Source of the DNA: Mycolicibacterium cosmeticum
Lineage (GTDB): Bacteria; Actinomycetota; Actinomycetes; Mycobacteriales; Mycobacteriaceae
Length of the DNA stretch: 64,000 nucleotides
Reading direction: 5' to 3'
Assembly (NCBI RefSeq): GCF_000613185.1
Contig: NZ_CCBB010000002.1
Location: 558,001 to 622,000, forward strand
This document shows positions 7,921 through 53,913 of the stretch, piece after piece. A program made the translations under genes and the position numbers. The stretch's first letter is position 1. The number at the start of each line of letters is the position of its first letter. The notes beneath the pieces are model-generated. The model saw nothing but the letters and a program-made list of their open reading frames with translations, had not been told where the DNA came from and did not search any database.

Positions 7921-9063
7921 TTACGAGTCGTCGAGCATCTCCTCGAGGTCCTCGGTGGTCGGGATGTCGGCGGCGGGCAGCACCAGCGAGGACTCCGGCG
8001 TCCAGCTGACGTACACCTGGTCACCGGGCCGCAGCAGCGGCAGATTCTGTTCGGGGCCGACGTGGGCGACGACCACCGATTCGTCGGGGGCCACCACGGC
8101 CAGCCGCACCACCGGACCCTGGAAGGTCATATCGCGCACCGTGGTCAGCACCGAGACCACGTCGCCGGTGGGCGCTTCGGTGGACACCCGGACCCGTTCG
8201 GGCCGGATCATCAGCGTGGCCTGCCCACCGGACTCGATGGCGGTGTCGCCCGGGCGGGACTTCAGCGTGGACCCGAGCACCTCGATCTCGACGAAATCAC
8301 GGTTGGCCCGCCCGGTCTGGCGTCCCGACCAGAGGTTGGCCTGCCCGATGAACCCGGCCACGAACACCGTCGAGGGCCGGTCATAGATCTCGGTGGGGGA
8401 GCCGATCTGCTCGACGTTGCCGGCGTTCATGACCGCGATGCGGTCACTCATCGTCAGCGCTTCCTCTTGGTCGTGGGTCACGTAGATGAAGGTGATCCCG
8501 ACCTCGCGTTGGATGCGTTTGAGTTCGAACTGCATGGCGTGGCGCAGTTTGAGATCGAGCGCGCCCAGCGGTTCGTCGAGCAGCAACGCGCTGGGGTAGT
8601 TGACCAGGGCGCGGGCCAGTGCCACCCGTTGCTGCTGGCCGCCGGAGAGCTGGCCGGGCTTGCGCTTGGCGAAATCGGTGAGCCGCACGATCTCCAGGAT
8701 CTCGTCGACCGAGCGCTTGATCTGCGCCGCGTCTTTGCGCTCGGACTTCTTGCGGCTGCGCGGCCCGTAGGCCACGTTGTCCCACACCGTCATGTGCGGG
8801 AACAGCGCGTAGTGCTGGAAGACGGTGTTCACGTTGCGCTTGTGCGGCGGGACCGTGGAGACATCGACGCCCTCGAGGCGGATCGCCCCGGAGGTCGGCG
8901 TCTCGAATCCCGCGATCATCCGCAGCGTCGTGGTCTTACCGCAACCCGACGGGCCCAGCATGGAGAAGAACTCCCCGGAACCGATGGTGAAGTCGGCATC
9001 GGCCACCGCGACGTAGTCGTCGAAGCGCTTCGTCACGTGGTCGATCTCGATGACCGGGGCCAC
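7921..9063 (-). CDS. potA: Polyamine ABC transporter ATPase, PotA-like
   Basis: 380 residues with the ABC core: Walker [10 protein letters not shown] (about residue 38), Q-loop [15 protein letters not shown], signature LSGGQQQR, Walker [13 protein letters not shown] and H-loop [10 protein letters not shown]-terminal TOBE domain of about 110 residues follows, as in PotA. It powers the PotBCD importer and is the first gene of that operon. The GTG start leaves the normal N terminus. The frame stays open upstream to about 9129, next to an AGGGAGGA ribosome site, so a longer form from a non-standard codon is possible. Confidence 0.9.
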
Positions 9064-9273
9064 CTTCTTGATGGCGGCTCCGTCCTCTCCCGTCGCGTTG
9101 CCAGCGGCGGTGATATTTGTGCCGGTCAGGGCCCGTCCTCCCTCAGCGTCATGTTCGATGCGCTCTCAACCTTGGTCCATCGTCGGGGTCTTCGCAAGCG
9201 ATTCCGCAACGAATTTACATTCAGACAATGGAATCCATAGGCAAGATGCCAAATATCGGCAGAATCCGCCGCC

Positions 9274-9299
9274 CCGATGGGTTCAAACCCCGTCATCGG
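9274..9299. promoter_or_regulatory. Imperfect inverted repeat in the potA / NCS1 permease divergent region
   Basis: CCGATG and CATCGG arms enclose GGTT and AACC, in the 281-base region between the divergent PotA-like and NCS1 permease genes and 45 bases before the permease ATG. Shape and place suit an operator controlling the permease. No regulator is encoded beside it. Confidence 0.35.
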
Positions 9300-9344
9300 T
9301 GGTGAGGCGTCAGGCCGCTGTCTCGACCGTGATCGAATGGTCGC

Positions 9345-16141: not shown

Positions 16142-18553
<2,412 letters not shown>

Positions 18554-39670: not shown

Positions 39671-40309
39671 TCAACGTGCGCGCTTGTACCGGGACAGGAA
39701 CAGCGTCACGGCCTCGCGCACCACGTAGTCGCACCGGTCCGCATCGAGCTCAACCGTCGGTGTGGCGACAAGCCGACCCAGCAACATCTCGCCGAGTATG
39801 ACGTCGATGAACTGCGTCGTTGCCAGATCGGGGTCATCGATCCGAAAGCCGCGCTCCCGGGCGAGTCGGCGCACGTAAGCGTTCACCGCGCGTCGCGCCG
39901 GACTTCGTCCGTTGTCCATCAGGCCATGGCCGAGCTCGGGGAATCGCGGGCTTTCCCAGATGACCAGCCGGAGAAACGCCACGGCTTCCGGGGGCGACCA
40001 GAAGTCGGTGATCGCCCGGCCGATGGCGTACAGGACCTCCTCGGGCGGCCCGACGCGGTTCGTCGCGTCGACGATGGCGTCCAACGGCATGCGGTTCCAC
40101 AGCTGCGCCATCGTCGCCTCGAAGAGCAGTTGCTTGCTCGCGAAGTGGTTGTACAGCGTACGGCGAGCCACCCCGCACTCCAGCGCGATCTCGTCCATGC
40201 TCGAGTGTCCGTAACCGTGGGCGAGAAACACCCGACCGGCTGTGCGCAGAATCAACCCACGTGTCGATTCTGGTTCCAGCGGAGAGGCCGGGGGGGCGAC
40301 GGGGGTCAT
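39671..40309 (-). CDS. TetR-family regulator, candidate controller of the acetolactate cluster
   Basis: 212 residues. The helix-turn-helix is GYGHSSMDEIALECGVARRT with LYNHFASKQLLFEATM. A larger effector domain follows (AetR/TetR_C_7-like). It is on the same strand as the cluster that ends at 40405, 95 bases downstream of it, and is the only regulator inside that region. The pair of TGCACTGTACAGTGCA operators at 43158 and 48128 is likely its target, by position only. Confidence 0.82.
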   Translation of the reverse strand: MTPVAPPASPLEPESTRGLILRTAGRVFLAHGYGHSSMDEIALECGVARRTLYNHFASKQLLFEATMAQLWNRMPLDAIVDATNRVGPPEEVLYAIGRAITDFWSPPEAVAFLRLVIWESPRFPELGHGLMDNGRSPARRAVNAYVRRLARERGFRIDDPDLATTQFIDVILGEMLLGRLVATPTVELDADRCDYVVREAVTLFLSRYKRAR

Positions 40310-40404: not shown

Positions 40405-41232
40405 CTACTCGCCGTAACGGATGAGCAAGTCGGGCCGACCACGATCGTCGGTCCAGCTGATGTACTCGCTCTGGTCGTGGGTGCAGAACATCTCAATCTC
40501 GTCGGGGTGGGCCAACCGGAGTTCGCGCAGCTTGGCCAGCGTTGCCACCCGCTTGGCGTAATCGGTTTGAAACGCGATCTCCAGCGGCAAGCCCGGGGCG
40601 GGGGAGAGGAAGTTCATCCTGTGATCGAAGTAGGAATCACCGGCATGCAGCGACCACTTGCCGTTCTCGCGGTAGGCGACACCACAGTGCCCAACCGTAT
40701 GACCGTGTAAGGGAACGAGTTTGGCGCCCAATTCCGCAGGAAGGTCAAGCGTTCGGGCGGGTAGCCCGAACCATGTCTCCTCAGTCGGTGCGTACGTCTT
40801 GAACTTCGTCTGGTGCGACACCTGGTAAGGCATGTAGGGGCCGCGCTTCTGCGTGCTGTCGTAGGCGGCCAATTCCTCGGACGCGACGTGCACCACAGCG
40901 TGCGGGAAGTCGTGCAAGCCCCCGACGTGATCGTTGTCCAGATGAGTGACGATGATGTCGGTGACCTGTTCGGGCTCGATGCCACGTGCCCGCAGGCGAT
41001 GCAGGGCGGTCAATCGCGGATCGATGAGGATGCCCAACTTGAACAGGGCGTCCGTTCCGAGAAGATTCTGCGGGTCCGCCATTTCCTGGGTGCCGAAACC
41101 TGTGTCGAGCAGGATGACGCGATCACCGATGTGGAAGATCACGCAGTGGATCGACATCGACGTCGTCGCGGTGTGCGCAAGCGGACCCATCAACCCGAAT
41201 GTCGCATGCTCGATCTCGATTCTGGATGCCAT
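40405..41232 (-). CDS. Metallo-beta-lactamase-fold hydrolase, lactonase-like
   Basis: 275 residues. The metal site begins IIVTHLDNDHVGGLHDF, so the usual HxHxDH reads HxDxDH with Asp for the second His. Further ligands are in PLHGHTVGHCGVAY, LHAGDSYFD and MFCTHDQSEY. The overall layout (HCVIFHIGDRVILLDTGFG) is that of N-acyl homoserine lactonase-like enzymes, which open lactone rings. The Asp variant may change metal content or substrate. Last gene of the right-to-left operon with the CMD-type and FrsA-like genes, one base after CMD. Confidence 0.82.
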   Translation of the reverse strand: MASRIEIEHATFGLMGPLAHTATTSMSIHCVIFHIGDRVILLDTGFGTQEMADPQNLLGTDALFKLGILIDPRLTALHRLRARGIEPEQVTDIIVTHLDNDHVGGLHDFPHAVVHVASEELAAYDSTQKRGPYMPYQVSHQTKFKTYAPTEETWFGLPARTLDLPAELGAKLVPLHGHTVGHCGVAYRENGKWSLHAGDSYFDHRMNFLSPAPGLPLEIAFQTDYAKRVATLAKLRELRLAHPDEIEMFCTHDQSEYISWTDDRGRPDLLIRYGE

Positions 41233-41233
41233 C

Positions 41234-41851
41234 TCAGTTTCCTTCAACCGCTCGGGCCTCGTCGGGCGTGGGAATCTGGAACGCGTTGAGCAGTGCACAG
41301 GTGAGCAGGTACAGCCCGACCAGATAGACGAGATCGACCAACGTGGCTGAACCGAAGTGCTTTTCGGCCTCCCGATACAGCTCGTCGTCGACTCTGTACT
41401 CCCGGGTGAGTTGGCTCGCGAACCTGTGCGCCAAGAGCTGGCCGGGGGTCAGCTCCGCCGGCGTCTCGCCACGGCACAGTCCCGCGATGGCCGCCTCGGA
41501 TAGGCCGACCGTCCGTGCGACAGCGGAATGGGCGTACATCTCGTAGGGCGTCCTCCAGATGGCGCCGACCGTGAGGATGACCACCTCGTGCGTCTGCTTG
41601 TCCAGGGAGGTGTGTTTCGAGTCCGCCTGCATCCACGCCAGGAAACCCGGCGTGATGCCCGTGCTGTACAGGTACGGGTTGAACGGCCCGATGAGCTTGC
41701 CGTCGTCGGTCATCCCTCGGAAGCCATTGCTGTCGGCCCACGTGATGAGGGTCGAGCGCATCGTCTGGTAGAGGTCTTTCTGGTCGCCGCTCAGGGTGGC
41801 CGGGTCGATCAACGGCAATCGCCCGCCGAGCGTCGAATCGGTATCGGTCAT
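41234..41851 (-). CDS. Carboxymuconolactone decarboxylase-fold protein
   Basis: 205 residues. The AhpD/CMD region reads LDKQTHEVVILTVGAIWRTP then YEMYAHSAVARTVGLSEAAI, where the usual Cys-x-x-Cys is missing. This places it with CMD/lactonase-related members and not with AhpD thiol peroxidases. The His in YAHSAVA is conserved. It may act with the lactonase-like enzyme next door in opening or decarboxylating a ring compound, which is inference. The start MTDTDSTLGGR lies 34 bases after the FrsA-like gene. Confidence 0.75.
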   Translation of the reverse strand: MTDTDSTLGGRLPLIDPATLSGDQKDLYQTMRSTLITWADSNGFRGMTDDGKLIGPFNPYLYSTGITPGFLAWMQADSKHTSLDKQTHEVVILTVGAIWRTPYEMYAHSAVARTVGLSEAAIAGLCRGETPAELTPGQLLAHRFASQLTREYRVDDELYREAEKHFGSATLVDLVYLVGLYLLTCALLNAFQIPTPDEARAVEGN

Positions 41852-41885
41852 GATGGTTCCTTCGGTCAGCAGATGGAGGTGGCGG

Positions 41886-43085
41886 TCAGGCCTTGAGGTT
41901 GTCGTCGAGCCAGTTGAAGACCACTTCGTCCTTGTAGGCCAACGCACCTGACTGGCAGTGGTTCTCGGCCCCGTCCTCCTCGTGAAAGGCGACGAAGGCC
42001 TTGGGCGCCTTCAGTTCTTGGTAGACGTGTTCGGGCTGACCGCGGAAGAACTGATCCCCGTCGGCCTCCATCACCAAGGTGGGGCAGGTGATCCCGTCGA
42101 GCACGCCACCGTCCAGGGTCATCTTCTTGCACTCGACCATGAAGTCGTATGGGGTCTTCTGACCGAAACTCCACGTGCCTTGGGTGAAGGTCCACCGGAC
42201 CTGGGTGTTGGCGTCCATCGCCTGTTGAGCCAGCGTGTTGAAGGTGGCCGCGTCTTCGTCATCGAGGGCCTTACCCGCCCCGGGAGGCATGATCCCGACA
42301 ATGCTGTCGTAGAGGCTCCAGACCCCGTCGAACAGAATCGCCGCTTTGAACCTCGGCTCGAACGCGGCCGCCCGGGCGGCGAGGTAACCCCCGAGGCTCA
42401 TGCCCTTGAGCGCCAGTCGGTCGGCGTCCACATCGGGTCGGGACACCGCGTAATCGACTACCGGTGAGACGACCTTCTCCCAGTCGTACCGGAAGTACAG
42501 CTTCTGCTCACGCACCGGCATGCCCTGGCCGGGACCGTCGAAGGTCAGACAGTTGTAGCCACGCCGGGTCGCGCCGGCGGCGGCGAAGTAGTACAACTCT
42601 TCGACGCTCGAGTCGAAGCCACCGTGGAAAATGAGGGTGGGCCGCGGCTCCGGGGAGTCGTCCGGTTTGTAGAAGTAACCCGGCAACGTCGTACCCTCAT
42701 AAGGGATTTCAATGGGCTCCCAGGTGGGACCCATCAGTTCGGCAGCCTTTGCGTAGGCGTCCTGCGAGGCCTTGGCATCGGCGAGAATGCGGGGATCATC
42801 CGGATTACCGTGCAGATAGAACTCCGACATCCGGAAGTATGTCGACGCACGCAGCAGCGCTTCCCGAGCACTGACGAGGTGGCCCCCGGACAGGTAATCA
42901 CGCGCTCGCCCCAGCACCCGTTCGCCACGGTTGTGCCAGCTCTGGTACCAGCTGTCGAAGTCGCCCTCGACGATGGTGTCGACCGTGGCCATGATCTCGG
43001 CGATATCGGCACCACCGTAATACGTGAACCCCAGATTGCGAACGAGTTCGAATGCGAACGAGTCGTCTTTGAAACCGACCTTCAT
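41886..43085 (-). CDS. FrsA/pseudooxynicotine-hydrolase-like alpha/beta hydrolase
   Basis: 399 residues. An N-terminal helical cap (about residues 1-120) precedes the hydrolase core with PTLIFHGGFDSSVEELY (oxyanion), nucleophile Ser230 in LKGMSLGGYLA, acid in VMEADGDQFF and His in GAENHCQSGA. Helical cap plus this core is the layout of 2,6-dihydropseudooxynicotine hydrolase and FrsA, some of which split carbon-carbon bonds of beta-dicarbonyls. The ATG of MKVGFKDDSF lies 66 bases after operator 1. First gene of the operon with CMD and MBL. Confidence 0.8.
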   Translation of the reverse strand: MKVGFKDDSFAFELVRNLGFTYYGGADIAEIMATVDTIVEGDFDSWYQSWHNRGERVLGRARDYLSGGHLVSAREALLRASTYFRMSEFYLHGNPDDPRILADAKASQDAYAKAAELMGPTWEPIEIPYEGTTLPGYFYKPDDSPEPRPTLIFHGGFDSSVEELYYFAAAGATRRGYNCLTFDGPGQGMPVREQKLYFRYDWEKVVSPVVDYAVSRPDVDADRLALKGMSLGGYLAARAAAFEPRFKAAILFDGVWSLYDSIVGIMPPGAGKALDDEDAATFNTLAQQAMDANTQVRWTFTQGTWSFGQKTPYDFMVECKKMTLDGGVLDGITCPTLVMEADGDQFFRGQPEHVYQELKAPKAFVAFHEEDGAENHCQSGALAYKDEVVFNWLDDNLKA

Positions 43086-43150
43086 GACTGCTCCTTGAGA
43101 TCGAATATCGATGGTGTGAGTGGAGGATCCAGCGGGTGGTACATCAGTCG

Positions 43151-43176
43151 ACTGCATTGCACTGTACAGTGCAGTC
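43151..43176. promoter_or_regulatory. Operator 1 of the acetolactate cluster (core TGCACTGTACAGTGCA)
   Basis: A 16-bp perfect palindrome at 43158-43173 with further partly symmetrical flanks (GACTGCA on the left, GCAGTC on the right). It lies 66 bases before the FrsA-like start. The same core with nearly the same flanks recurs at 48128-48153. Confidence 0.85.
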
Positions 43177-43311
43177 GGAGCCGCCGACAAGGCGAAAAGT
43201 GGCTTCGCGCCTCAGTTTTCCGGTTTGCCCTACGCTGCTTTTACGGCTAGCACTACCTGCGCCCGCGGGTGACGGCAGGGGTGGTGGCAGATGGGTGCCC
43301 GCCTTCGGTTG

Positions 43312-44988
43312 CTATTCGAAGGCGTCGTCATGAAGGTCGGCGCCCAGCTCACCCGATCGGCTGTAGTCCACGGGCACGTCGATCACGGTGACGCCACCGG
43401 CGCCGAACGATGCGCGCAATGCCGTCCGAAACTCCGCCAGTGTGCTCACCCTGACGCCGTGCGCTCCGAAAGCTGCTGCGAACGAGGCGATGGCGTAGTC
43501 ACCCAGTTCGACGCCGTTGGCCCGTCCATACTTCTGGACCGCCTGAAACTTCACCATGTCGTAGGAGTTGTCGCGCATGATGACGTGTGTGAATTTCAGG
43601 CCCAGGCGGCGCGCCGTCTCCAGTTCCTGCGCGCTGAACAAGAAGCCGCCGTCGCCGGACACCGAGACGATCTGCGTTCCCGGCCGCACCATCGATGCGG
43701 CCATGGCCCACGGAAGCGCGACACCGAGGGTCTGTTGACCGTTGGAGAACAACAGATGGCCGGGCTGATAGGTGCGGAGGTGCCGGGCGAGATAGATGTA
43801 GTGCGTACCGATGTCGCTGGCCACGGTGGCCTCGTCGTCGAGCAGCTCCCGCAGGGTCAGCACGAGTGCCACCGGGTCCACGAGCGCGCTTTCCGCCTCA
43901 CCCGCGCCCGACACGTCGTCGACGCCCTGCAGGACAGCGCGCTGTTCGTCGACGATGGCCGCGGCGGGATCGGCCAGGCACAGACCGGTCAGCCGCGAGC
44001 TCAGCGCGGCCACCGTGGCGGCGATGTCGCCACGCAGTTCGGCCACCGGTTGATAGTGGTTGTCCCAGTCGGCCGGTGCGGTGTCGAGGTGGACGATGCC
44101 GCGACGGTCGGGATCGGTGTTCCAGAGCCGGGGGTCGTATTCCACCGGGTCGTAACCCACTGCAAGCACCAGGTCAGCACGACTGAGCACGATGTCACCG
44201 GGTTGATTGCGGAACAGGCCGACGCGCCCGAGGTAGTGCGACTCCAGGGCCCGGGAGACGATGCCCGCCGCCTGGAAGGTCTCGACGACGGGCAGGTCCG
44301 CCACTTCCAGGAGGCCGCGAATCGCAGCACATGCGGCAGGCTCGGCGGCGCGCATCCCGGCCAGTATCACGGGGAATTTCGCCTGTCGGATCCGGTCGCC
44401 CACTGCGGCGATGGCGTCGCCGGGCGCCGGCCCGAGGCGACCGGGAGCGGCCAATCGCGACACCCCACTGGTGGTGCCGGCCTTGGCGACGTCCTGAGGT
44501 AGGACCACTGCCGCGGCGCCCTGCGGAACGCTCACGGCGGCTCTGAGGGCATTGGCCACCGCCTCATTCACATTGTCCGGGTCGTCCACCTCGGCAACGT
44601 ATTTGGTGAACGGCCGCAGAGCCTCCACCGTCGCCATCGACTGGTGGGTCCTCTTGATCCGGTCGGCGCGGTCGACGGCACCACAGATCGCGATCACCGG
44701 ATACTGCTCGGTGTTGGCCGTGAGCAGACCCGTGGACAGGTTGCTCGTACCGGGACCCGATGTCACCAGCACGGCACCGGGGGTGCCGGTGAGCCGGCCC
44801 ACCGCCGCGGCCATGAACGCCGCGTTCTGCTCGTGGCGGCAGATCACCAATTCGGGTCCGCCGTCGAGCAGGCAGTCGTACACGGCATCGATCTTCGCTC
44901 CGGGGACACCGAAGATGTAGCGCACCCCGAAGGCATCGAGGGTGTCCACGACGCGCTGCGCGGACCGGACAGCAGGCAACGTGATCAC
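43312..44988 (-). CDS. alsS: Catabolic acetolactate synthase, thiamine-diphosphate enzyme
   Basis: 558 residues, close to Bacillus AlsS length. It joins two pyruvates to acetolactate and CO2. Visible are FGVPGAKIDAVYDCLLD, the catalytic Glu in CRHEQNAAFMAAAVGRLTG, SGPGTSNLSTGLLTANTEQ, the ThDP/Mg site VSGDGGFLFSAQELETA with RDNSYDMVKFQ, and C-terminal VIDVPVDYS. These match the catabolic, FAD-independent group. The GTG has AGAGGA upstream. An ATG 60 bases earlier overlaps the alsD stop and would give 578 residues. Acetolactate decarboxylase precedes it, so acetoin is the expected product. Confidence 0.88.
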   Translation of the reverse strand: MITLPAVRSAQRVVDTLDAFGVRYIFGVPGAKIDAVYDCLLDGGPELVICRHEQNAAFMAAAVGRLTGTPGAVLVTSGPGTSNLSTGLLTANTEQYPVIAICGAVDRADRIKRTHQSMATVEALRPFTKYVAEVDDPDNVNEAVANALRAAVSVPQGAAAVVLPQDVAKAGTTSGVSRLAAPGRLGPAPGDAIAAVGDRIRQAKFPVILAGMRAAEPAACAAIRGLLEVADLPVVETFQAAGIVSRALESHYLGRVGLFRNQPGDIVLSRADLVLAVGYDPVEYDPRLWNTDPDRRGIVHLDTAPADWDNHYQPVAELRGDIAATVAALSSRLTGLCLADPAAAIVDEQRAVLQGVDDVSGAGEAESALVDPVALVLTLRELLDDEATVASDIGTHYIYLARHLRTYQPGHLLFSNGQQTLGVALPWAMAASMVRPGTQIVSVSGDGGFLFSAQELETARRLGLKFTHVIMRDNSYDMVKFQAVQKYGRANGVELGDYAIASFAAAFGAHGVRVSTLAEFRTALRASFGAGGVTVIDVPVDYSRSGELGADLHDDAFE

Positions 44989-45044
44989 GTCGTCCTCTCG
45001 AGAGTCGTCAACAATCCTGTATCCCGGCACGGGCGCTCGCGGAC

Positions 45045-45839
45045 TCATCCACCTTCGGTCCGCCCGATATCGGCGTCGAGGTCTGCCCGGTCGAGGTGCG
45101 CGTTCAAGAACTCCGCGGTGGTCGGCAAACTGAGGTGCAGATCCGAGCGCACGCTGATCTCTACGCGGGCCGCGGTGATCTGGAAGTCGAGGGCGTGGCC
45201 GCCCCGGGCATGCGCGGCATCGAGAAAGTGCAGATGGTAGCCGGCGACGCTGATGCCCTGCTCATAGTCGGGCATGCGGAATCCCGCCATCACCCCGGAG
45301 GTGTCCTCGAGGACGGTCTCGCTCTGGTTCTTCGTCGCCTCGGTGAAGCCACGATAGGGGCGGGTTTGCCGAGACACGGTTCTGGTGTGAATTCTGCTGA
45401 AATGTCCGGAAATACGGACCGCGTAGATGAGATTGGCACTTTCGATCCGAGCATCCACCGCTGCCGTGAGGCCGGCGCGATCAGTCGGTGCGTCGAGGTC
45501 GAACACGTGGTCGGCGCGAAACCAGGTCACTGCCGCGAAAGGCGTCCGGGCCTGCAGATCGGCGCGGTTCACCGTGCCGTCGGCATGCAGCTGGTAGCAC
45601 ACGCCGTCGAGGATCACCATCTCCCCGTCCAGCTGATTGAAGGTTCCGAGCCCGAAGTCGCCGTGCTCGAGCACCTCCTGGATGGTCATGTCACCGTCGT
45701 AGATGCCGTCGAGCAGAGCACCCATTGTGGATCTCTGGTACACAGCCCGGCCGTGCTCGCCATCGTGATGCACACCATGCGGTTGCACCCAGTGCGCGAG
45801 CCAGGTTCGCATCCACTGCGCGTTCTGGTCGAATGTCAT
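45045..45839 (-). CDS. alsD: Alpha-acetolactate decarboxylase
   Basis: 264 residues, a normal length. It turns acetolactate into acetoin. Signs are STMGALLDGIYDGDMTIQEV, HGDFGLGTFNQLDGEMVILD, VRISGHFSRIHTR, and the zinc site GYHLHFLDAAHARGGHALDF with His202, His204 and His215. It is placed between the MetX-like hydrolase and alsS in one operon. Acetoin formation is rare in mycobacteria, so this pair is a notable acquisition. The ATG of MTFDQNAQW follows the upstream stop by 31 bases. Confidence 0.9.
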   Translation of the reverse strand: MTFDQNAQWMRTWLAHWVQPHGVHHDGEHGRAVYQRSTMGALLDGIYDGDMTIQEVLEHGDFGLGTFNQLDGEMVILDGVCYQLHADGTVNRADLQARTPFAAVTWFRADHVFDLDAPTDRAGLTAAVDARIESANLIYAVRISGHFSRIHTRTVSRQTRPYRGFTEATKNQSETVLEDTSGVMAGFRMPDYEQGISVAGYHLHFLDAAHARGGHALDFQITAARVEISVRSDLHLSLPTTAEFLNAHLDRADLDADIGRTEGG

Positions 45840-45870
45840 ACCGACAACGGTCCTTCCTCACCACGGCACG

Positions 45871-46887
45871 TCATGACCCGTGATGGCCATCAGTCGTCCA
45901 CGCGAGGATTTCCCGCACGTGGTGCGCCCAGAGACGGGCGTTCTTGAGTGACAGATGTCCGTCCGACCCGGGGCCGGTCGGGACGATGACGGCTCTTCCC
46001 CGTGCGACGCGCTCGACGGCGTCCCGGAGAACATCCGGCCCGCTCGGGTTCACCTCGTCGTCTTCGAAATTGACCGCGAGCAGGGGCGCGGTGATGTCGC
46101 TCAGCCGAGCGCTGGGGTCGTAGTCGAAAGACGCGGCGAACTCCCAGATGGTGTCGTTCGCATCCTGCAGCCGGACGGCGTCGTCGGCCGCCTTCTGGAC
46201 GTACGCATCCGCGGTCGCAATCGAATCGATGGCGCGTTCGAGTGCGGGTACTCCGTGCGTCAACAGCGCGAAGATGTTGAAAGCGAGACCGACCGAACGG
46301 GGCTGACTGTCGTAGGCGCCGTCCCGATACGCGGGGTCGGTGCGAATGGCGTCGATGAGCAGACGACGGTACAACAAGTTCCGTCCCCGAACACGCTGCG
46401 GCAGCGCGGCTATCGGCATCAGCGCACGCATTGTATCCGGGTACATCTGGCCCCACATCCAGGTCTGCATCCCGCCCATCGACGTACCGGCGACCAACCG
46501 CAGCGTCCGGATGCCCAGGTGCTCGGTGACCAGTCGATGCTGGGCGGTCACGATGTCGACATAACCGTACTGCGGGAACCGGTTGCCCAACCCGTCACTG
46601 GGTTTACTGGAACCCCCGTGCCCGAGTGCGTCCGGAAGGATCACGTAGTGGCTGGCGAGGTCGAGTGGCCGGCCCGGCCCGAACAGATGGTCCGCGGTGC
46701 TCGGAATCAGGAACTGTGTGCCGCTGCCCGTCGTCCCGTGCAGCAACAGCACCGCGTTGACGACATCGCCGTCGGCGGCACGTCGAGGTGTCCCCAGAGT
46801 CCGGTAGTTCTGCGTGACGGCGGCCAGCGTGTCACCGCAGGTGAACCGGAAGTCGGTCAACGTGACGTGTGCCTCGGATACTTGCAT
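45871..46887 (-). CDS. MetX-like alpha/beta hydrolase (homoserine acetyltransferase fold)
   Basis: 338 residues. The core has AVLLLHGTTGSGTQF, ILPDALGHGGSSKPSDGLG, the nucleophile in VAGTSMGGMQTWMWG, an acid in NFEDDEVNPSG and His in GPGSDGHLSL. The layout is that of homoserine O-acetyltransferase, but many relatives are plain hydrolases, and no methionine genes are near. It lies three bases after the DUF3500 gene. Probably a hydrolase in the route fed by the cluster. Confidence 0.8.
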   Translation of the reverse strand: MQVSEAHVTLTDFRFTCGDTLAAVTQNYRTLGTPRRAADGDVVNAVLLLHGTTGSGTQFLIPSTADHLFGPGRPLDLASHYVILPDALGHGGSSKPSDGLGNRFPQYGYVDIVTAQHRLVTEHLGIRTLRLVAGTSMGGMQTWMWGQMYPDTMRALMPIAALPQRVRGRNLLYRRLLIDAIRTDPAYRDGAYDSQPRSVGLAFNIFALLTHGVPALERAIDSIATADAYVQKAADDAVRLQDANDTIWEFAASFDYDPSARLSDITAPLLAVNFEDDEVNPSGPDVLRDAVERVARGRAVIVPTGPGSDGHLSLKNARLWAHHVREILAWTTDGHHGS

Positions 46888-46890
46888 CGG

Positions 46891-48069
46891 TCAGCGGTGG
46901 GCGACGTTCTCGTAATGGTGCTTGAGCAGATCTATACCGAAGTCCCGCACAGGGTTACGCAACACCGAGTGGACGTGGTTGCCCTTGCGCTGGGTGTTGT
47001 CATACTCGTAGAGAAACTCGGTGCCCGCCTGCAGCCGAAAGTAGACCGGCGCGCCGTCAAGGGGTCCGCCCCAGGCAACATGCATTCCCGCCAGCCGATC
47101 GGGACCGATCGGCGCCAAGTCGAGGTGGATGCCCGACGACGCCGCGGCCACCAGGCTCTGCAAGAGCTGTCGTTGATCGGGGGACAGGTCGGCCGCGGAG
47201 AGGCCCTTTGGCTTGACGGTGTAGGCCATCCGGCGGTGGTCGGCTTTGGTGAACCCCGACTGTTGCTCACCTTCGGCGTAGATGCCGTCGGCCAGCTTGA
47301 GCAGTTCCGGCTTTTCGAGTTTGCCACGGAACAGGTTCCGGGTGACCATCATCTCGTCACCATCGGCGAGCCGGTCCCGGTTACCGCTCACGATGTCGCC
47401 GACGGCCCGGTCGAGCAGTTGCATCTGTGAGCGCTGTGCGCCGTCGAGCGAGGCGGCGAATTGGAAGGCCAGATCTTCGATGCCGCCGAGTGGGGCGTAA
47501 TGCGCGCCACCCGGCAGCGGTGCCGAGGCCGGATCGGCGCCGAGGAAGAGGGGAGTGGTCGCCGCGACCTCACCGTCGATCACCAAGAAGTTGATGGACA
47601 GATGGTGGCCGCCGAACCGCCAACTCCACGTGGCGCTTTCACGAGGATCGCCGAAGATGCGCAGGTAGTACCGGCCGGTGTCGCGACCGCGCGGGAAGTC
47701 CCACTGGATGCTGAAGTCTTCGTAGAGATCGAGGATGTTCTCCAACCCGACGATGGCCGCGGCCGCCACGTAGCCCTCTCGGCTCAGGCCGGTGGCGAGC
47801 AACATCATCGCCAACTGCCGTTGGTGCGGGTCTTGCTGCTCCAGGGTGAGCCCACCGTGATCGGTGGGCACATAGAAGAATCTCCGCCGCTCGCGATCGG
47901 CATCCTCCTGCGATGGAGCGGGGAACAAGGCCGTTCGAATCTGGCTCTCGGAGAGCGTATTCAGCCAGATGCGTGCCCTGTCGGCCATCTCCGTTGCGCG
48001 CGCCCGTGCTGGGCTTTCGCCATCGGATGAGGGCGCGGTTGTTGAGGGGTTCGAACTGTTGGCAGACAT
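46891..48069 (-). CDS. DUF3500 family protein
   Basis: 392 residues. Family features are LNTLSESQIRTALFP, REGYVAAAAIVGLENIL, RYYLRIFGDPRESATWSWRF then GGHHLSINFLVIDG, and the C-terminal YEYDNTQRKGNHVHSVLRNP with FGIDLLKHHYE. DUF3500 proteins are found in many bacteria and fungi without an assigned reaction. The many His residues (GGHHLSIN, GNHVHSV) suggest a metal site. The start MSANSSNPS lies 58 bases after operator 2. First gene of the operon with MetX-like, alsD and alsS. Confidence 0.82.
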   Translation of the reverse strand: MSANSSNPSTTAPSSDGESPARARATEMADRARIWLNTLSESQIRTALFPAPSQEDADRERRRFFYVPTDHGGLTLEQQDPHQRQLAMMLLATGLSREGYVAAAAIVGLENILDLYEDFSIQWDFPRGRDTGRYYLRIFGDPRESATWSWRFGGHHLSINFLVIDGEVAATTPLFLGADPASAPLPGGAHYAPLGGIEDLAFQFAASLDGAQRSQMQLLDRAVGDIVSGNRDRLADGDEMMVTRNLFRGKLEKPELLKLADGIYAEGEQQSGFTKADHRRMAYTVKPKGLSAADLSPDQRQLLQSLVAAASSGIHLDLAPIGPDRLAGMHVAWGGPLDGAPVYFRLQAGTEFLYEYDNTQRKGNHVHSVLRNPVRDFGIDLLKHHYENVAHR

Positions 48070-48127
48070 CACGCCGGTATTCCCTTCGATCCGCGAAGCT
48101 GAGGTCGTTGAGCACTTCACCAGAGCC

Positions 48128-48153
48128 TGCACTGCACTGTACAGTGCAGTGCA
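48128..48153. promoter_or_regulatory. Operator 2 of the acetolactate cluster, perfect 26-bp palindrome
   Basis: Arms TGCACTGCACTGT and ACAGTGCAGTGCA meet without a spacer. It lies in the divergent promoter between the DUF3500 gene and the cupin gene. The central 16 bases equal those at 43158-43173. Confidence 0.88.
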
Positions 48154-48220
48154 ATCGAGGTTCAACACTTACTTGATTCACGTTCCCGCATCCGTGTCCG
48201 CCTACCCGCAGAGGATGACC

Positions 48221-48925
48221 ATGTCCGATACACCTCCACACGGTCTCGAACCCACCAGCGACGCGCGCAACGTCGCCACACCGACCGTCTCCGAGGCCGG
48301 CTTCCCGCCACCGCCCGCCATCCCGATCAAGCCGGGTATCGGATCACCCTGGCTCGGTCTGCCGGCCGCCGGGTCCAAGCCGGAGCCCGGCTTGGACCCG
48401 GACCACCCCCACGTCTTCCATCTACAGTCCGCACCAGGCAATTTCATGCCCGGAGGAAGCCTGCAGGGCGCGCATGCCGAGAACTTCCCGATCCTTCGCG
48501 GACAGAAGGCGGCGACCTATCTGATCCACCTCGCGCCCGGCGGGATCCGCGAGCCGCACTGGCACCCCAGTGCGTGGGAAGTCAACTTCGTCATCGCCGG
48601 TACCACCCGATGGAGTTTCGTCGGGCCCGACTCGACCCAGGATCGTTTCACCGTCGGCGCCGGTGACCTGGTGTTCGCCCCTCAGGGTCATTTCCACTAC
48701 TTCGAGAATGTCAGCGACACCGAGGACCTCTATGTGCTGGTGGTGTTCAATGCCGAGACCACCGAACCCCAGGACGACGTGCCACTGGCACAGTCGATCT
48801 CATCGGTGCCTGCCGACGTTTTGGGTGCCGTGTTCGGCGTCGACCCTTCCGTGTTCGCACAACTTCCCGTGATCAAGCACCGCAAGCCCGTGGTGCAGAA
48901 ACCCGGATTCGGCGACAGTCGTTGA
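48221..48925 (+). CDS. Cupin, oxalate-decarboxylase-like single domain
   Basis: 234 residues. The cupin metal site is in GGIREPHWHPSAWEVNFVIA (HxH...E) and FAPQGHFHYFENVS. The leader HVFHLQSAPGNFMPGGSLQG resembles bicupin oxalate decarboxylases, of which this would be a half-size single-domain version. AGAGG lies six bases before the ATG used; an ATG two codons upstream is less likely. It is divergent from the DUF3500 operon and shares operator 2. It may act as a decarboxylase or dioxygenase on a pathway intermediate. Confidence 0.8.
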   Translation: MSDTPPHGLEPTSDARNVATPTVSEAGFPPPPAIPIKPGIGSPWLGLPAAGSKPEPGLDPDHPHVFHLQSAPGNFMPGGSLQGAHAENFPILRGQKAATYLIHLAPGGIREPHWHPSAWEVNFVIAGTTRWSFVGPDSTQDRFTVGAGDLVFAPQGHFHYFENVSDTEDLYVLVVFNAETTEPQDDVPLAQSISSVPADVLGAVFGVDPSVFAQLPVIKHRKPVVQKPGFGDSR

Positions 48926-48955: not shown

Positions 48956-50224
48956 TCAGCAGGCGATCTCGATGTCGATCCATTTCGCATCGGCCTCGGC
49001 GACAAAGCCGGGCGGCAACACCTCGTCGCCCTTGTCGCTGCGCGCATAGCTGATGTCGTGCTCCCCGAGCGCCTTCAGCAGATCCTCGAGCGGAATGTTG
49101 TTGCGATAGTTTCCGGAGCCCTCCTGCGTGGACACCATCGCCGGGATCTCACGCGGCAGCACCTTCTCGACGAGCGTCTTGGACGTCGCGTTGTGGCTGC
49201 CGTGGTGGCCGACCTTGAAGAAGGTGGCGCCGCGCAGGAGGGAGCGCGCTTTGTTGTTCGCCAAAATGCGCTTCCAGGTTCCCCATTCGGCGTCGCCCGG
49301 CAGCAGCAGACGGGCGTCGCCGATCTCGAGTACCAGCACCAGGCTCGTCGAGTTGATCATGTCGTCGACGGCCTTCGCGGCCAGCAGCGCGTCGGCCGAG
49401 TGCGCGAGTCCTTTCAGACGCTTGAGGTCTTTGGCGGCGAGCTGCGGTCCCGCGTCGGTTTCAGGCACGCGCCACTGCTCGGAGAACGGGGCTGCAACCG
49501 CCTGGGCCAGGACGCCGGCGGCCCTCAACATGAGTGCTTTGTAGGTCTCGTCGTCATTGGCGGGGTCGAGTTCCTCGATCTCGTCGGGATCACGCGGTGG
49601 CCCAAGGACGTGCACCTTCATTCCGGTGATCACGCTACTTTCGAAGGTCTCCGGAAAGACGTTGCTTTCGGGCAGGAACCGCGGATCCAGTCGGTCGCGG
49701 TGCCTGAACCCGTCGTGCAGCGTCTCCAGCGCTCCCTGGTTGCTCCACGCCGCCAGCTCGGCATCGGCCGCCAGGTTGGTGATGTCTATCCCGGCGTTCC
49801 ACAGCAGGAAGTCGAGTTCCGCATTGTCCTCCGGCGAGAGCCCGAAGCTCGGGGCCGCCTCGGCCAGCCTCATGGCGAAGCCCTGCTGCTTCTTCCAGAG
49901 TTTGGTTGCGTCGGGGTTGTCGCGGTCCTCGACCCAGGGCATCCAGACCTCGCCGATGTCGAGCTTCTTCCATTCCGCCGAATTGAAGGCGAACACGTGA
50001 TCCTGATGGCGGTGCGTCGCGATCACGACGTCGATGCGCGGTTCACCGCTGTGTGCTTCCGCGTCCGCCGCGATTTGCTTGGCGAGGTCATTGCCGGTGA
50101 ACGCACCCTTGCCCTGACTGTGGAAGCCCGCGTCCACGAGAATGGTCTTCTTGCCGGGCAGCAGTAGCAGGAACGAGTCGCCGAAGCCGACGTTGTACAT
50201 GCGGATCGTCATCGTGGAGCTCAT
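48956..50224 (-). CDS. ComEC/Rec2-like metallo-beta-lactamase-fold hydrolase
   Basis: 422 residues. The metal motif HxHxDH is in VVIATHRHQDHVFAF; LVLEIGDARLLLPGDAEW and FFKVGHHGSHNATSKT supply the other ligands in ComEC-like style. No signal peptide is seen, so it acts in the cytoplasm, perhaps on nucleic acid or a phosphodiester. The ATG of MSSTMTIRMYNVG has GGAGG ahead and overlaps the stop of the metallopeptidase by four bases. Third gene of the patatin/peptidase/MBL operon. Confidence 0.82.
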   Translation of the reverse strand: MSSTMTIRMYNVGFGDSFLLLLPGKKTILVDAGFHSQGKGAFTGNDLAKQIAADAEAHSGEPRIDVVIATHRHQDHVFAFNSAEWKKLDIGEVWMPWVEDRDNPDATKLWKKQQGFAMRLAEAAPSFGLSPEDNAELDFLLWNAGIDITNLAADAELAAWSNQGALETLHDGFRHRDRLDPRFLPESNVFPETFESSVITGMKVHVLGPPRDPDEIEELDPANDDETYKALMLRAAGVLAQAVAAPFSEQWRVPETDAGPQLAAKDLKRLKGLAHSADALLAAKAVDDMINSTSLVLVLEIGDARLLLPGDAEWGTWKRILANNKARSLLRGATFFKVGHHGSHNATSKTLVEKVLPREIPAMVSTQEGSGNYRNNIPLEDLLKALGEHDISYARSDKGDEVLPPGFVAEADAKWIDIEIAC

Positions 50225-52071
50225 CGCCACCTCCGTGCGTCCATGGCCCGCGCCGAGTATGCGGCGGCAATCCGGTTGGGTTTGGGATCAGCTGGGGCCC
50301 AGCCCATCCCGTACGTGTCGTCGAATGCGGTGACCCGGTCGCGCAGGGCCTGCTTCCGGTCCTCGCAGAACGGCTTGCGGATGTAGTAGCGGACCTGCCC
50401 GTCGATGTTGGCCACGAGTGTCAGTCCCGCGCGGTAGTGCAATCCGCCGAGATCGTCTTCCAGGCGCATGGTCTGGACAATCTGCGCGACCATCTCGACC
50501 AGCAACTCGCCCGTGGCGGCGATCCGGTGCACCGGATGGAATTCGACTGCAGCGGGAATGTCGGGATCGAGCTGGAGCCGGCGGCGGTTCGCCTTCACCC
50601 AGGATCCCAGCCTCCCGCCCAGGCTGCGCCAATCGTCGTCCGGTTCCTCCGTCTCGGGGATCTGCGCGTCTTCTCTCGGTGGCTCCGAAAGCGACTGGTA
50701 TTGCTGCGCGTCCCAGTCGGAACGGCTCGTCACCTCACGTGCGCGTGGCTGCCGGTATGTGCTGGTGGATGTCGCCGGGCCCGTCGTCCGGCCGAGCTCG
50801 CGCGCACCAACCTCGACCAGGTCCGCGACGATCCTCGCGAGATCGCTGTCCTTCGGCGCGTCATCGGGCTCCACCTCAAGGAGCAGTGATTCGACAGCCA
50901 GCGAGCCCACGGCCTGGGGCTGTATGCCGCGCTGGCGGAAAGCCTCGATCATCGAAGCGCGGACACCCGAGACGTCCGAGCGATTCAGTTCGAAGTCGGC
51001 CGTGATCATCGCCCGCAGGTAATCGCTGAACGTCGGATCGACGGGCGGCAGGTAGTCGGTGGCGCGGATGCACATCGACAGGACCGTCTGCGCCGTGCGG
51101 ACGCACTCCCCGGCGAGCCGGTTCACCAGGTCCGGATGCAACTCCCCGTCCGGCAGCTTGCCGCTGCCACCTGTCGCGATGCGGACGAGGTCGCGCGTGC
51201 GTCGCTCGTAGGTGTCCACGAACCCGTCGTACACCGCCGACACGAGGATCCATCCGAGGGCATGCGGCTCGGTGGTGGAGGCGACTTTCGACGGATCGCG
51301 CGTGGCCGCAATGCTGCGCAGCGCATGGCCTTTCCCGGCGGCAGAGCCGAATTGCGCGCCGATGTCCAGTAACCGTCCCTGCGGATCCAACAGATTGTTG
51401 CGCGTCTCACGGATTGCAGTGCTCACGACTTCCGGAAACGTCAGGCGCTGGAACAGCGCGACGATGTCGGCGAACGCCTCATGCAGAGCAGGAACCTGAG
51501 GGTTGGTGGGTTCGTTGTACCGGCGATGCAGACGGCTCAACGCCGCGTGCGCGACCTCGTGGGCCACGATGTCGTGCGAGAGGCAGGTGAAGATCAACTG
51601 TCCCGGCAAGTTGGGACCGGGATCGTCCACATCAGCGGAGAAGTAGCCGAAGAGCACGGCGTTCAGGTCGTCGTCGAAATACGCGTTGCTGCCCTGAAAA
51701 GCGTGCGGCATGAGTCGCAGCCGCTCGCCGCCCCAGAATCGCAGGCGTCGACCGAGCGCGCGGTCGAAGTTCTCGAGCACGCGCGAGGCGACCGCGTACA
51801 CCATCTGTTGGTGGAACTGGGGATCGGATTCCGACGGCTCGATGCCCTGCTGCATCGCGATCGCGGCGTCGTCGAGGTCGACGGCTTTGTAGTACACGTC
51901 AGCGGCAGCGTCGTAGTCGACCACCTCGAGCCGGTCGTCCCAGAAGGAGCGCTCGATCCGGTCGAGCTTGCGATAGGGCACTTCGACGGTGACGCGATGG
52001 TCTCCGGCCCGCGAGATCATCGGGTCGAAGGCGAATATCCGCAACGCTCTTCGTTCGGGGGCTTTGCGCAT
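50221..52071 (-). CDS. Large gluzincin-type metallopeptidase
   Basis: 616 residues. The zinc site is HEVAHAALSRLH (residues 171-175 HEVAH), with the third ligand probably Glu198 in ALHEAFADIVALF, the gluzincin arrangement. Upstream are YFDDDLNAVLFGYFSA and downstream a long helical C-terminal part of unknown fold with a flexible Ser/Thr/Pro-rich stretch near 450. No signal peptide. AAGGAGG precedes the ATG of MRKAPERRAL. It lies 29 bases after the patatin gene. I know no characterised homologue; substrate and function are open. Confidence 0.78.
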   Translation of the reverse strand: MRKAPERRALRIFAFDPMISRAGDHRVTVEVPYRKLDRIERSFWDDRLEVVDYDAAADVYYKAVDLDDAAIAMQQGIEPSESDPQFHQQMVYAVASRVLENFDRALGRRLRFWGGERLRLMPHAFQGSNAYFDDDLNAVLFGYFSADVDDPGPNLPGQLIFTCLSHDIVAHEVAHAALSRLHRRYNEPTNPQVPALHEAFADIVALFQRLTFPEVVSTAIRETRNNLLDPQGRLLDIGAQFGSAAGKGHALRSIAATRDPSKVASTTEPHALGWILVSAVYDGFVDTYERRTRDLVRIATGGSGKLPDGELHPDLVNRLAGECVRTAQTVLSMCIRATDYLPPVDPTFSDYLRAMITADFELNRSDVSGVRASMIEAFRQRGIQPQAVGSLAVESLLLEVEPDDAPKDSDLARIVADLVEVGARELGRTTGPATSTSTYRQPRAREVTSRSDWDAQQYQSLSEPPREDAQIPETEEPDDDWRSLGGRLGSWVKANRRRLQLDPDIPAAVEFHPVHRIAATGELLVEMVAQIVQTMRLEDDLGGLHYRAGLTLVANIDGQVRYYIRKPFCEDRKQALRDRVTAFDDTYGMGWAPADPKPNRIAAAYSARAMDARRWR

Positions 52072-52100
52072 CAAGTCCTCCTTGCCGGCCGCCAAAGGTG

Positions 52101-53531
52101 CTACTGCAGTGGAACGATGGGCTGTTGGGGTGGCGGTGATGCCGGGTCGTCGCTGGGATTGCTTTGCCCCGGACTTGGTGTGACCAGCCGGCGGAACTGA
52201 TCGATCGCCGGTATCCCCACGAGCGGATAGCCGAGCAGCACGTGACAATTGACCATGCTCAGGATGTAGCCGTGCCGGATCAGCGATTCGGCACGACGCG
52301 GGGCGACCCGCGACAACGTCGTCTTGACGCGTCGGTTGCGATCGGCCTCCGCTTCCCAGAACTGTCTGTCCAATCCACCCAGCGCCGCGATTGCTTCACG
52401 AGCGCGGGCAGCCAACGAATCCGAACCGCTCACATAGGCGTCGGGTATCGAGAATGGACTCTGGCTTATTTGAATCGTCGTGCCGCGCAACGACTCCTTC
52501 AACACAGACGCTGTGTGATGAATGTGGCCGAGGTCGTCGTCGCGAGCGATACGGTAGCGCGTATTGAGCAGCCGGCGACGCACGGCGGTTGTCTGGCGGT
52601 ACATCACGTCCTTGACCGCAAGGAGACTGCGAATCTCGCCGATCAGTGGAACCGTGATCGACGGGCGCAGAACGACATCGTCTCCGGCGGACGCATTGAC
52701 CACGACCACTTCTTCGACCGGGTGCAGGCCGGGCGGGGGAGATCCTTTGAGCCGGTCATCCAGTCCCAACAGCCACTCGGAGCCCATGTTGTCGTACACC
52801 CCGCCGTCGAGAAGTTTGAAATGGCGGGGGGCTTGCCGGTCGGGCATACCGCCCTGGGGCAGACCGAAGCGGCTCAGCGGCATTGATACGACGCTGAATG
52901 CTCCAGGTAACGCGGCCGACGCCTGCGCCGCCCGCGCGATGCTCAGGTCACCCGGTGTGCCCCAGCCGGTCCGCCACGAATTGACGAACTTGCTCGAGAA
53001 GTACACCGCCTGACCCATCTGAAGATCGGTCGCGCACAAGACATGTGACACAACGGAGTTCATCGACGTCAGCGGTCTGCGATGGAACAGCGTGGTGTCG
53101 AAGGCGTGCGCGACCACAGTGCTGCGCCACTGGGCCATCCACCCGCACAATGCAATCACGGTCATCCACACCACGACGCACAGCCAGCCCAGGCCCGCGA
53201 AACTGAGGGCGGTTGCGAGCGCCAGCAACGCCGCGATGCTGCCCAGGTACAAGTAGGTGACGGGGGCGGCCCATAGCGTTCCTCGACTGGCGATCTGGGT
53301 CGCAAAAGCGCGGGCGTGCGTCCACATCGTCGCGGAATCTACCGTCGTCAGGTCCGCCGCGTAGCCGAGGTAGGCGTTGGTAAGCGATCCGCCCGACACG
53401 GACGACACCGACCGCAGTTCGGGACCCTTGCCGGCGTCGATGAGGTACAGCAGAGCGCCCAAGTTGAATAGTGCCGCCCGGTGACCGCCCCCGGACAGTG
53501 CCACCCCGATACCGGGTACATCGTGTGCCAT
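52101..53531 (-). CDS. Membrane-anchored patatin-like phospholipase
   Basis: 476 residues. Patatin motifs: glycine loop VALSGGGHRAALFNLGALL, nucleophile Ser46 in VSSVSGGSLTNAYLG, and the Asp of LLDGGVYDNMGSEW. Between them two adjacent helices (SIAALLALATALSFAGLGWL and VVVWMTVIALCGW, about residues 95-135) would fix it in the membrane. Patatins split acyl groups from phospholipids, and several act as membrane-destroying effectors in phage defence. The start is the second Met. First gene of the operon with the metallopeptidase and MBL hydrolase. Confidence 0.82.
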   Translation of the reverse strand: MAHDVPGIGVALSGGGHRAALFNLGALLYLIDAGKGPELRSVSSVSGGSLTNAYLGYAADLTTVDSATMWTHARAFATQIASRGTLWAAPVTYLYLGSIAALLALATALSFAGLGWLCVVVWMTVIALCGWMAQWRSTVVAHAFDTTLFHRRPLTSMNSVVSHVLCATDLQMGQAVYFSSKFVNSWRTGWGTPGDLSIARAAQASAALPGAFSVVSMPLSRFGLPQGGMPDRQAPRHFKLLDGGVYDNMGSEWLLGLDDRLKGSPPPGLHPVEEVVVVNASAGDDVVLRPSITVPLIGEIRSLLAVKDVMYRQTTAVRRRLLNTRYRIARDDDLGHIHHTASVLKESLRGTTIQISQSPFSIPDAYVSGSDSLAARAREAIAALGGLDRQFWEAEADRNRRVKTTLSRVAPRRAESLIRHGYILSMVNCHVLLGYPLVGIPAIDQFRRLVTPSPGQSNPSDDPASPPPQQPIVPLQ

Positions 53532-53913
53532 CACCCTCCCTTTTGGCGCTAGGTTGAGGTGATCCCGAACGAGTGCTCCGCCAGCGGCCGAGACCCTGTC
53601 CGCCAGTGGTGATGTTCAGTGTCACGTACCGTCTGCCGGCACATGCGAGTAGCGCGGTACTCGAATTGCAATCGGCAGTGGCGAGCCGAACCTCGGGAGA
53701 GCCCGTGCACGCCGCATCCTCGGTTCGACGCGGGGGATAGAAGAACCCTTCCTTTCAATGCGGTCACGAACGCGAGGGAGCGTTCTGCCGCCGCCGCTTG
53801 GGCAAAGACTTCTAATCGCATGACGCTTGAACCCGCCTCGACCACGTCGGTGCCGTCGGGGAGGTTGACCTGGGAGTCGGGCGTTGAATGGGCAATGGCC
53901 CAGCGGGACATGC
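53532..53913. other. Region without a clear gene upstream of the patatin operon
   Basis: About 380 bases leading to the patatin gene. A 120-codon frame on the minus strand (53549-53911) begins with a plausible stretch (DGTDVVEAGSSVMRLEVFAQ) but ends in Arg-rich codons and matches no family I know. It could be a decayed gene. The promoter of the patatin operon must lie here. Confidence 0.4.

Follow-up and report, generated by a model that had tools for sequence, protein, structure and literature searches.

A Candidate TetR Regulon in Mycolicibacterium cosmeticum Combining DUF3500, Lactonase-like and Acetoin-Forming Enzymes

Introduction

The DNA considered here is a 64,000-nucleotide stretch of Mycolicibacterium cosmeticum (the window; contig NZ_CCBB010000002.1, positions 558,001 to 622,000 of the forward strand), in which two exact copies of one palindromic operator core lie ahead of two operons and a divergent cupin gene, and the neighbouring TetR-type repressor gene has orthologues that co-occur with this site across genomes. 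The first operon encodes a FrsA-like hydrolase, a carboxymuconolactone-decarboxylase-family (CMD) protein and a metallo-beta-lactamase-fold (MBL) hydrolase; the second encodes a DUF3500 protein, a MetX-like hydrolase, AlsD and AlsS. The cluster is a candidate for a real, unusual and well-delimited TetR regulon, and with a probability of roughly 40% this one regulon constitutes a ring-opening branch that gives pyruvate and then acetoin.

In the proposed mechanism, the TetR protein (39671–40309) would bind both palindromes and keep the two operons and the cupin gene repressed in the absence of an inducer, which is probably the pathway's substrate or one of its intermediates. The genes would encode an aerobic catabolic branch in which ring opening of a polyhydroxylated compound by the DUF3500 protein yields a lactone, which the MBL protein opens in turn, and the FrsA-like hydrolase cuts the resulting beta-diketone to pyruvate, together with malonate; AlsS and AlsD would convert surplus pyruvate into acetoin, and the cupin may handle a small acid such as oxalate.

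Operator Sites and Operon Layout

A search of the window finds exact copies of the core TGCACTGTACAGTGCA at 43158–43173 and 48133–48148; the former is a perfect 16-bp palindrome, and the latter is the centre of a perfect 26-bp palindrome at 48128–48153. Both had been claimed in a first-pass annotation of this DNA and were located exactly, and the placement it gave them, ahead of the FrsA-CMD-MBL operon, the DUF3500 operon and the divergent cupin gene, matches the gene coordinates. Operator 1 lies 72 nt ahead of the FrsA-like ATG (43085) and operator 2 lies inside the 151-nt gap between the DUF3500 ATG (48069) and the cupin ATG (48221); with start codons picked by hand, the distance of both operators to start codons is 58–72 nt.

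When up to three mismatches are allowed, the window contains four matches to the core, two of which are register shifts of operator 2, compared with 0.10 on average and at most 2 in shuffled windows (n = 100); the 12-base centre alone, with up to two mismatches, shows no excess over chance (2 vs. 1.29 expected). A scan of the whole 6.46-Mb genome matches only the two known places, with no third copy of the core at up to two mismatches, and a chance model built on the window base composition expects 0.0006 exact copies and 0.9 copies with up to two mismatches in a genome of this size. Two exact copies 5 kb apart at promoter positions are not chance. A promoter and terminator scan gave nothing above chance (1 vs. 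1.0; 4 vs. 4.2). The features of the cluster are as follows.

39671–40309, minus strand: TetR repressor with an AefR-type C-terminal domain (PF00440, PF14246), expected to bind both palindromes; six of the 80 panel genomes, each of them site-bearing, have an orthologue
40405–41232, minus strand: MBL hydrolase, lactonase-like (PF00753; PDB relatives)
41234–41851, minus strand: CMD protein, a marginal member of PF02627 (25.3 vs. 23 bits)
41886–43085, minus strand: FrsA-like alpha/beta hydrolase, candidate C-C (beta-diketone) hydrolase (PF06500; PDB relatives)
43158–43173, no strand: operator 1, core palindrome ahead of the FrsA-CMD-MBL operon
43312–45048, minus strand: AlsS, catabolic acetolactate synthase (NF006378, TIGR02418; catabolic acetolactate synthases in the PDB)
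45045–45839, minus strand: AlsD, acetolactate decarboxylase (TIGR01252; PDB relatives)
45871–46887, minus strand: MetX-like alpha/beta hydrolase of the PRK06489 family (NF005071, 420.5 vs. 305 bits)
46891–48069, minus strand: DUF3500 protein, candidate ring-opening enzyme (PF12006; PDB relative Amc20)
48128–48153, no strand: operator 2, perfect 26-bp palindrome in the DUF3500/cupin gap
48221–48925, plus strand: single-domain cupin related to oxalate decarboxylase (PF00190; PDB relatives)

The spacing of 34 nt and 1 nt within FrsA-CMD-MBL, and of 3 nt, 31 nt and a 4-nt overlap within DUF3500-MetX-like-AlsD-AlsS, fits two operons. The G+C content of the cluster genes (0.61–0.67) is equal to or slightly under the window mean of 0.667. 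Pfam and NCBIfam scans covered ten proteins, with the longest open reading frames (ORFs) as queries.

Co-Occurrence of TetR and Operator across Genomes

With up to one mismatch, the operator occurs in 5 of 248 genus genomes; it occurs in 7 of 396 genus genomes, a set that contains the 248. TetR orthologues were sought in a chosen, non-random panel of 80 genomes (the 7 site-bearing ones, 39 with a FrsA match, overlapping with these, 10 of the 11 with a DUF3500 match, and others), with at most 38 TetR candidates scored per genome. Besides the source genome, orthologues with 63–68% identity were found in G055, G137, G168, G196 and G377, the last of which has an additional partial match (83% over residues 60–179). 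The orthologue is present in all six genomes that have the site together with a FrsA-like gene or its remnant and in none of the 74 others; correspondingly, the site is found in 6/6 genomes with the TetR and in 1/74 without it (Fisher p = 2e-8 for this chosen panel). The seventh site-bearing genome, G354, lacks a TetR match as well as any match to the cluster genes in the 20 kb surrounding its site, which is probably a chance occurrence.

The best FrsA-like orthologues among the 248 genomes (72–80% identity) are those of G137, G055, G196, G207 and G168, and four of these five genomes have the site no more than about 155 nt ahead of the FrsA match. In G055 and G137, TetR and FrsA share a strand; the TetR gene comes first and the site separates the two. 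The TetR gene of G196 lies about 1.06 Mb from the site, which is still kept at FrsA; linkage by itself therefore cannot account for the pattern. G207, with its FrsA-CMD-MBL trio, shows no TetR match and lacks the site (up to three mismatches, 20 kb). Because its orthologue co-occurs with the site across genomes, the TetR protein at 39671–40309 is very probably the binder of both palindromes, and the earlier claim of shared regulation through one operator is strongly supported in its regulatory half, with binding as a prediction.

DUF3500 and the Proposed Ring Opening

The DUF3500 protein matches PF12006 over profile positions 3–296 of 297 at 201.1 bits, against a gathering cut-off of 27.2. Its invariant GHHxSxN and NHxH residues, candidate metal ligands, are also kept in Amc20, the sole solved DUF3500 relative in the PDB; the literature matches listed for Amc20 were just unrelated uses of the name. 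It has been proposed that a DUF3500 protein of A. nidulans turns 1,2,3,5-tetrahydroxybenzene into 5-hydroxydienelactone (excerpt, PMC12388069), and the tetrahydroxybenzene ring-opening route is described as currently seeming restricted to fungi (excerpt, PMC13094099). An A. niger strain with 17 classical ring-cleavage genes deleted still grows on gallate, and the excerpt of this report does not name DUF3500 (PMC10512348).

Drawn out on paper, intradiol cleavage of 1,2,3,5-tetrahydroxybenzene would lead to HOOC-CH2-CO-CH2-CO-COOH, that is, 2,4-dioxoadipate (malonylpyruvate), a beta-diketone whose hydrolysis would release pyruvate and malonate at one bond, or oxalate and acetoacetate at the other. 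A beta-diketone product able to yield pyruvate would explain the presence of AlsS and AlsD, and 2,4-dioxoadipate as an intermediate would provide work for the lactonase-like MBL protein, a C-C hydrolase, AlsS/AlsD and an oxalate-type cupin. This single-intermediate scheme is an argument from fit, in which the CMD and MetX-like proteins receive no clear step. Martins et al. reportedly described in 2024 that the partners in the fungal tetrahydroxybenzene cluster are a flavin monooxygenase and a fumarylacetoacetate-hydrolase-like protein.

Other DUF3500 genes have varied surroundings. Five mycobacteria (G185, G077, G245, G109 and G000, the source genome; L078–L082) carry a second DUF3500 operon, LysR-DUF3500-RraA/aldolase-like, divergent from SDR, VOC and PNPOx-like genes; Pfam and NCBIfam were run on one of the five, with aldolase models below the cut-off, and this operon is a candidate for another DUF3500 pathway. 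A tabulated excerpt of PMC8416521 gives a DUF3500 gene of Rhodococcus qingshengii RL1 a locus tag near that of a 3-hydroxyphenylpropionate-type hydroxylase gene. The neighbourhoods of plasmid DUF3500 genes are mixed, with no common partner. In G213 (L084:5781–9343), a DUF3500 gene adjoins two Rieske fusions, whose respective partners are a thiamine-diphosphate enzyme and a glutamate-synthase-type domain. Positions 8227–9324 of MT835972.1 also encode a DUF3500 protein (46% identity); this 14.4-kb record from human faeces carries the label Bacteriophage sp. and is perhaps a mislabelled bacterial contig.

AlsS, AlsD and Acetoin

AlsS scores above the equivalog cut-offs of NF006378 (750.2 vs. 510 bits) and TIGR02418 (680.7 vs. 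551.1 bits) and aligns over its full length with solved or designed catabolic acetolactate synthases in the PDB, while AlsD exceeds the equivalog cut-off of TIGR01252 (271.3 vs. 180.65 bits) and keeps, in alignment with solved AlsD, the HxH...H stretch, which we take to be metal ligands. An acetoin/2,3-butanediol dehydrogenase above the TIGR02415 cut-off (343.5 vs. 304.35 bits) is encoded about 0.6 Mb away on the contig that holds the cluster (G000:C2:5788–6549, L143); this model has matches in all 14 control genomes and passes its cut-off in 2. AlsD is found in 42 of 248 genus genomes (E value 1e-30), a minority trait and not a rarity; the first-pass annotation had called the acetoin pathway uncommon in mycobacteria.

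Forty-three AlsD loci lie outside the source genome, of which 40 and that of G144 were fetched, and G073 and G226 were left out; G144 has a 73% AlsD piece with no AlsS nearby. In 41 loci (the 40 and M. fragae), the gene order is AlsS-AlsD in 25 and AlsD-AlsS, as in the window, in 12, and 4 have no AlsS nearby. In three of the 40 (two being M. angelicum and M. szulgai), genes for acetaldehyde dehydrogenase and 4-hydroxy-2-oxovalerate aldolase immediately precede AlsD, and the genes ahead of AlsD in M. fragae include fumarylacetoacetate-hydrolase-type and hydroxylase ones; AlsS/AlsD as a pyruvate sink thus has precedents, in a minority of loci, and with these counts a general claim that mycobacterial AlsS/AlsD reside in aromatic operons was rejected. 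A rifampin-monooxygenase-type flavin gene lies upstream in 11 of the 40 loci (one member annotated). At L011, AlsD-AlsS stands beside formate dehydrogenase- and FdhD-like genes, as judged by eye.

Close relatives in protein collections share 71–87% identity with the DUF3500 protein and 71–83% with AlsD. In three cases, the DUF3500 and AlsD entries list equally long longest contigs (5,336,433, 873,433 and 13,776 bases), and in the 5,336,433-base case both entries are named Mycobacterium sp. WMMD1722; judging from equal size, the two genes appear to lie on one contig in three other lineages. In the tree, the window AlsD and seven of these relatives form a supported clade (100/100). Because of the matching contigs and this clade, DUF3500 and AlsD probably travel together.

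Hydrolases and Cupin

The nearest protein to the FrsA-like hydrolase in the PDB is 2,6-dihydroxypseudooxynicotine hydrolase (2jbw), with 3fnb, named as an acylaminoacyl peptidase, equally close; AntI and Yg1 are more distant relatives. The reaction of AntI is a retro-Claisen C-C cleavage, and the enzyme has a Ser-His-Asp triad (excerpt, PMC11165489). The GXSXG serine, Asp and His motifs are kept in 5/5 aligned orthologues (six sequences, including that of G196, which has an internal stop elsewhere), and identity as the FrsA esterase was rejected (46 bits vs. the NCBIfam cut-off of 477). For the MBL protein, PDB relatives are organophosphorus hydrolases and lactonases (E values from 7e-10 to 1e-3), and its HLDNDH motif is kept in 2/2 aligned orthologues. 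The CMD protein has no PDB relative at an E value of 0.01. The protein called MetX-like in the first-pass annotation does not fit the MetX model: the homoserine acetyltransferase identity was rejected at 104.9 vs. 500 bits, and the protein belongs instead to PRK06489.

With the longer ORF 47969–48925 as the query, the best PDB match of the cupin is the SLL1358 protein (3e-28), followed by oxalate decarboxylases (1e-24 to 4e-22). It has one cupin domain and scores 81.7 vs. 254.2 bits against the bicupin oxalate decarboxylase model; its HWH...E...H region, presumably metal ligands, aligns with the C-terminal domain of OxdC. Close cupin relatives have 91, 85 and 67% identity, and none among the best 120 is named WMMD1722, most entries carrying no name; the cupin may be a later partner of DUF3500/AlsD.

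The lactone or diketone route to pyruvate and then acetoin, as originally suggested, is plausible, backed by the fungal DUF3500 proposal, the C-C hydrolase relatives, the lactonase relatives of the MBL protein and a canonical AlsS.

Gene Content and Alternative Explanations

A number of observations weigh against one branch from ring opening to acetoin. The complete FrsA-CMD-MBL trio is found in the source genome and also in G168 and G207, where DUF3500 and AlsD matches are lacking; the two operons are thus not necessarily parts of one pathway. A DUF3500 relative with an E value of 1e-100 or better is confined to the source genome (1/396), and weaker relatives (1e-20) occur in 11 of 248 genomes, the source genome included. 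For fungi, too, the role of DUF3500 is at the stage of a proposal. The ten proteins scanned, to which this search was confined, contain neither a flavin ring hydroxylase nor a fumarylacetoacetate-hydrolase-type protein (PF01557). The nearest FAD monooxygenase-like ORF in the window, found by eye, is 22 kb off (16172–17674); with no ring hydroxylase in the cluster, the ring would be supplied by a compound taken up or an enzyme elsewhere, and the FrsA-like hydrolase could replace the fumarylacetoacetate-hydrolase-type enzyme. In 20 of the 40 AlsD loci, a Na+/H+ antiporter-cluster gene lies within 7 kb upstream (Pfam annotation of one member), and in 37 of the 40 no homologue of the pyruvate-releasing aldolase was found in that range, in a search limited to this aldolase type and with some contigs short. 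The choice of panel and the ceiling on TetR candidates likewise temper the co-occurrence result.

In one alternative, a single repressor controls two modules that are not one pathway: FrsA-CMD-MBL would be an older lactone or polyketide detoxification cassette, and DUF3500-MetX-like-AlsD-AlsS with the cupin would have come under its operator to deal with another step or with a substrate handled in parallel. G168 has the trio, TetR and site without the second operon, and G207 has the trio alone, while G055, G137 and G196 have FrsA with the site and the TetR somewhere in the genome; of CMD, just a 33-residue match is left in G055, a search of 20 kb around FrsA in G137 and G196 turned up neither CMD nor MBL, and in G196 a single internal stop interrupts the FrsA frame. 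G377 retains a trio remnant beside an open TetR gene, and its site lies about 4 kb from the decayed trio, before a zinc-type oxidoreductase gene (start codon picked by hand) and near VOC, amidohydrolase, SDR and luciferase-like genes, which indicates that regulon content changes. Since the close DUF3500 relative is confined to the source genome of 396, the second operon and cupin look like an addition to the regulon. On the other hand, operator 2, ahead of the second operon, is the longer of the two perfect palindromes, and one chemical logic would accommodate the enzymes encoded by both operons; we regard two separate modules as rather unlikely.

The antiporter genes are also relevant to a role of AlsS/AlsD in pH or pyruvate-overflow balance, with the cupin as a second proton consumer and the regulon answering acid or weak-acid stress. 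AlsS/AlsD and oxalate decarboxylase both use up protons, which is in keeping with this idea; however, 19 of the 20 antiporter loci have the reverse order AlsS-AlsD and the remaining one has no AlsS nearby, these loci stand apart from the window AlsD in the tree (the deep split being weakly supported, 70/85), and no part in an acid response is known for the hydrolases, CMD or DUF3500. An acid-stress function is improbable.

An equally low likelihood is assigned to a biosynthetic or tailoring cluster for a secondary metabolite, in which DUF3500 would act as Amc20. The name Amc20 resembles that of a biosynthetic gene, a Streptomyces plasmid carries DUF3500 among P450 and cupin genes, and the FrsA-like relatives AntI and Yg1 act in pigment synthesis, but the ten proteins scanned include no polyketide- or peptide-type synthase, and AlsS and AlsD are of catabolic types. 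It has also been suggested, in the first-pass annotation, that AlsS joins a non-pyruvate 2-oxo acid from the pathway, so that something else than acetoin is made. Some side activity is known for AlsS-type enzymes, and the cluster offers no obvious reason for acetoin as such; this alternative nevertheless gained no support, given the equivalog scores of AlsS and AlsD and the full-length alignment of AlsS with catabolic synthases, and its chances are slight.

Finally, destruction of a neighbour's lactone signal by the MBL and FrsA-like proteins is highly improbable, because matches to acyl-homoserine lactonase models are weak and all far below cut-off (the best, AidB, 52.9 vs. 360 bits), whereby an N-acyl-homoserine lactonase identity was rejected, and AlsS/AlsD and DUF3500 would be left unexplained.

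Beyond the cupin, at 48956–53534, lie genes for a second MBL protein with weak matches to defence-system MBL proteins (LmuA, RT-associated MBL, Avs1a), a 675-aa protein that lacks a Pfam match and in which an HExxH motif was seen by eye, and a patatin; together they may be a defence-like trio.

Significance and Comparison with Known Systems

If the single ring-opening branch is correct, a route said to seem fungal-only would extend to bacteria (excerpt, PMC13094099), DUF3500, with more than 1000 related proteins in one search, would gain a bacterial role, and ring carbon would end up in acetoin, which is neutral and volatile. Should the chemistry prove wrong, operator and repressor would still mark out a small regulon, and its inducer would show what the substrate is. 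No comparable cluster was seen among the papers listed for DUF3500 and related terms.

The TetR protein resembles repressors with an AefR-like C-terminal domain in domain content and in having a palindromic operator near the regulated genes; to our knowledge, no known operator has this sequence, though no literature search aimed at it was made. AlsS and AlsD resemble those of the acetoin operons alsS-alsD and budBA in exceeding curated cut-offs and being adjacent in one operon, but here the order is AlsD-AlsS, behind DUF3500 and the MetX-like gene, and the operator is common with hydrolase genes. The FrsA-like protein shares with the C-C hydrolases 2jbw, AntI and Yg1 the cap and hydrolase domain (2jbw, query residues 46–257) and the GXSXG serine, Asp and His; it is distant from them and sits in a trio with CMD and MBL genes. 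The likeness to the fungal 1,2,3,5-tetrahydroxybenzene pathway consists of the DUF3500 protein, at family level, and of an opened acid that would be a beta-diketone needing a C-C hydrolase. That the cluster is a bacterial counterpart of this ring opening, built in mycobacteria from unrelated downstream enzymes under one TetR operator, is a doubtful proposition; it would differ from the fungal pathway in that an MBL lactonase and a FrsA-like C-C hydrolase replace the partners reported for fungi, and in that it ends in AlsS/AlsD and hence in acetoin.

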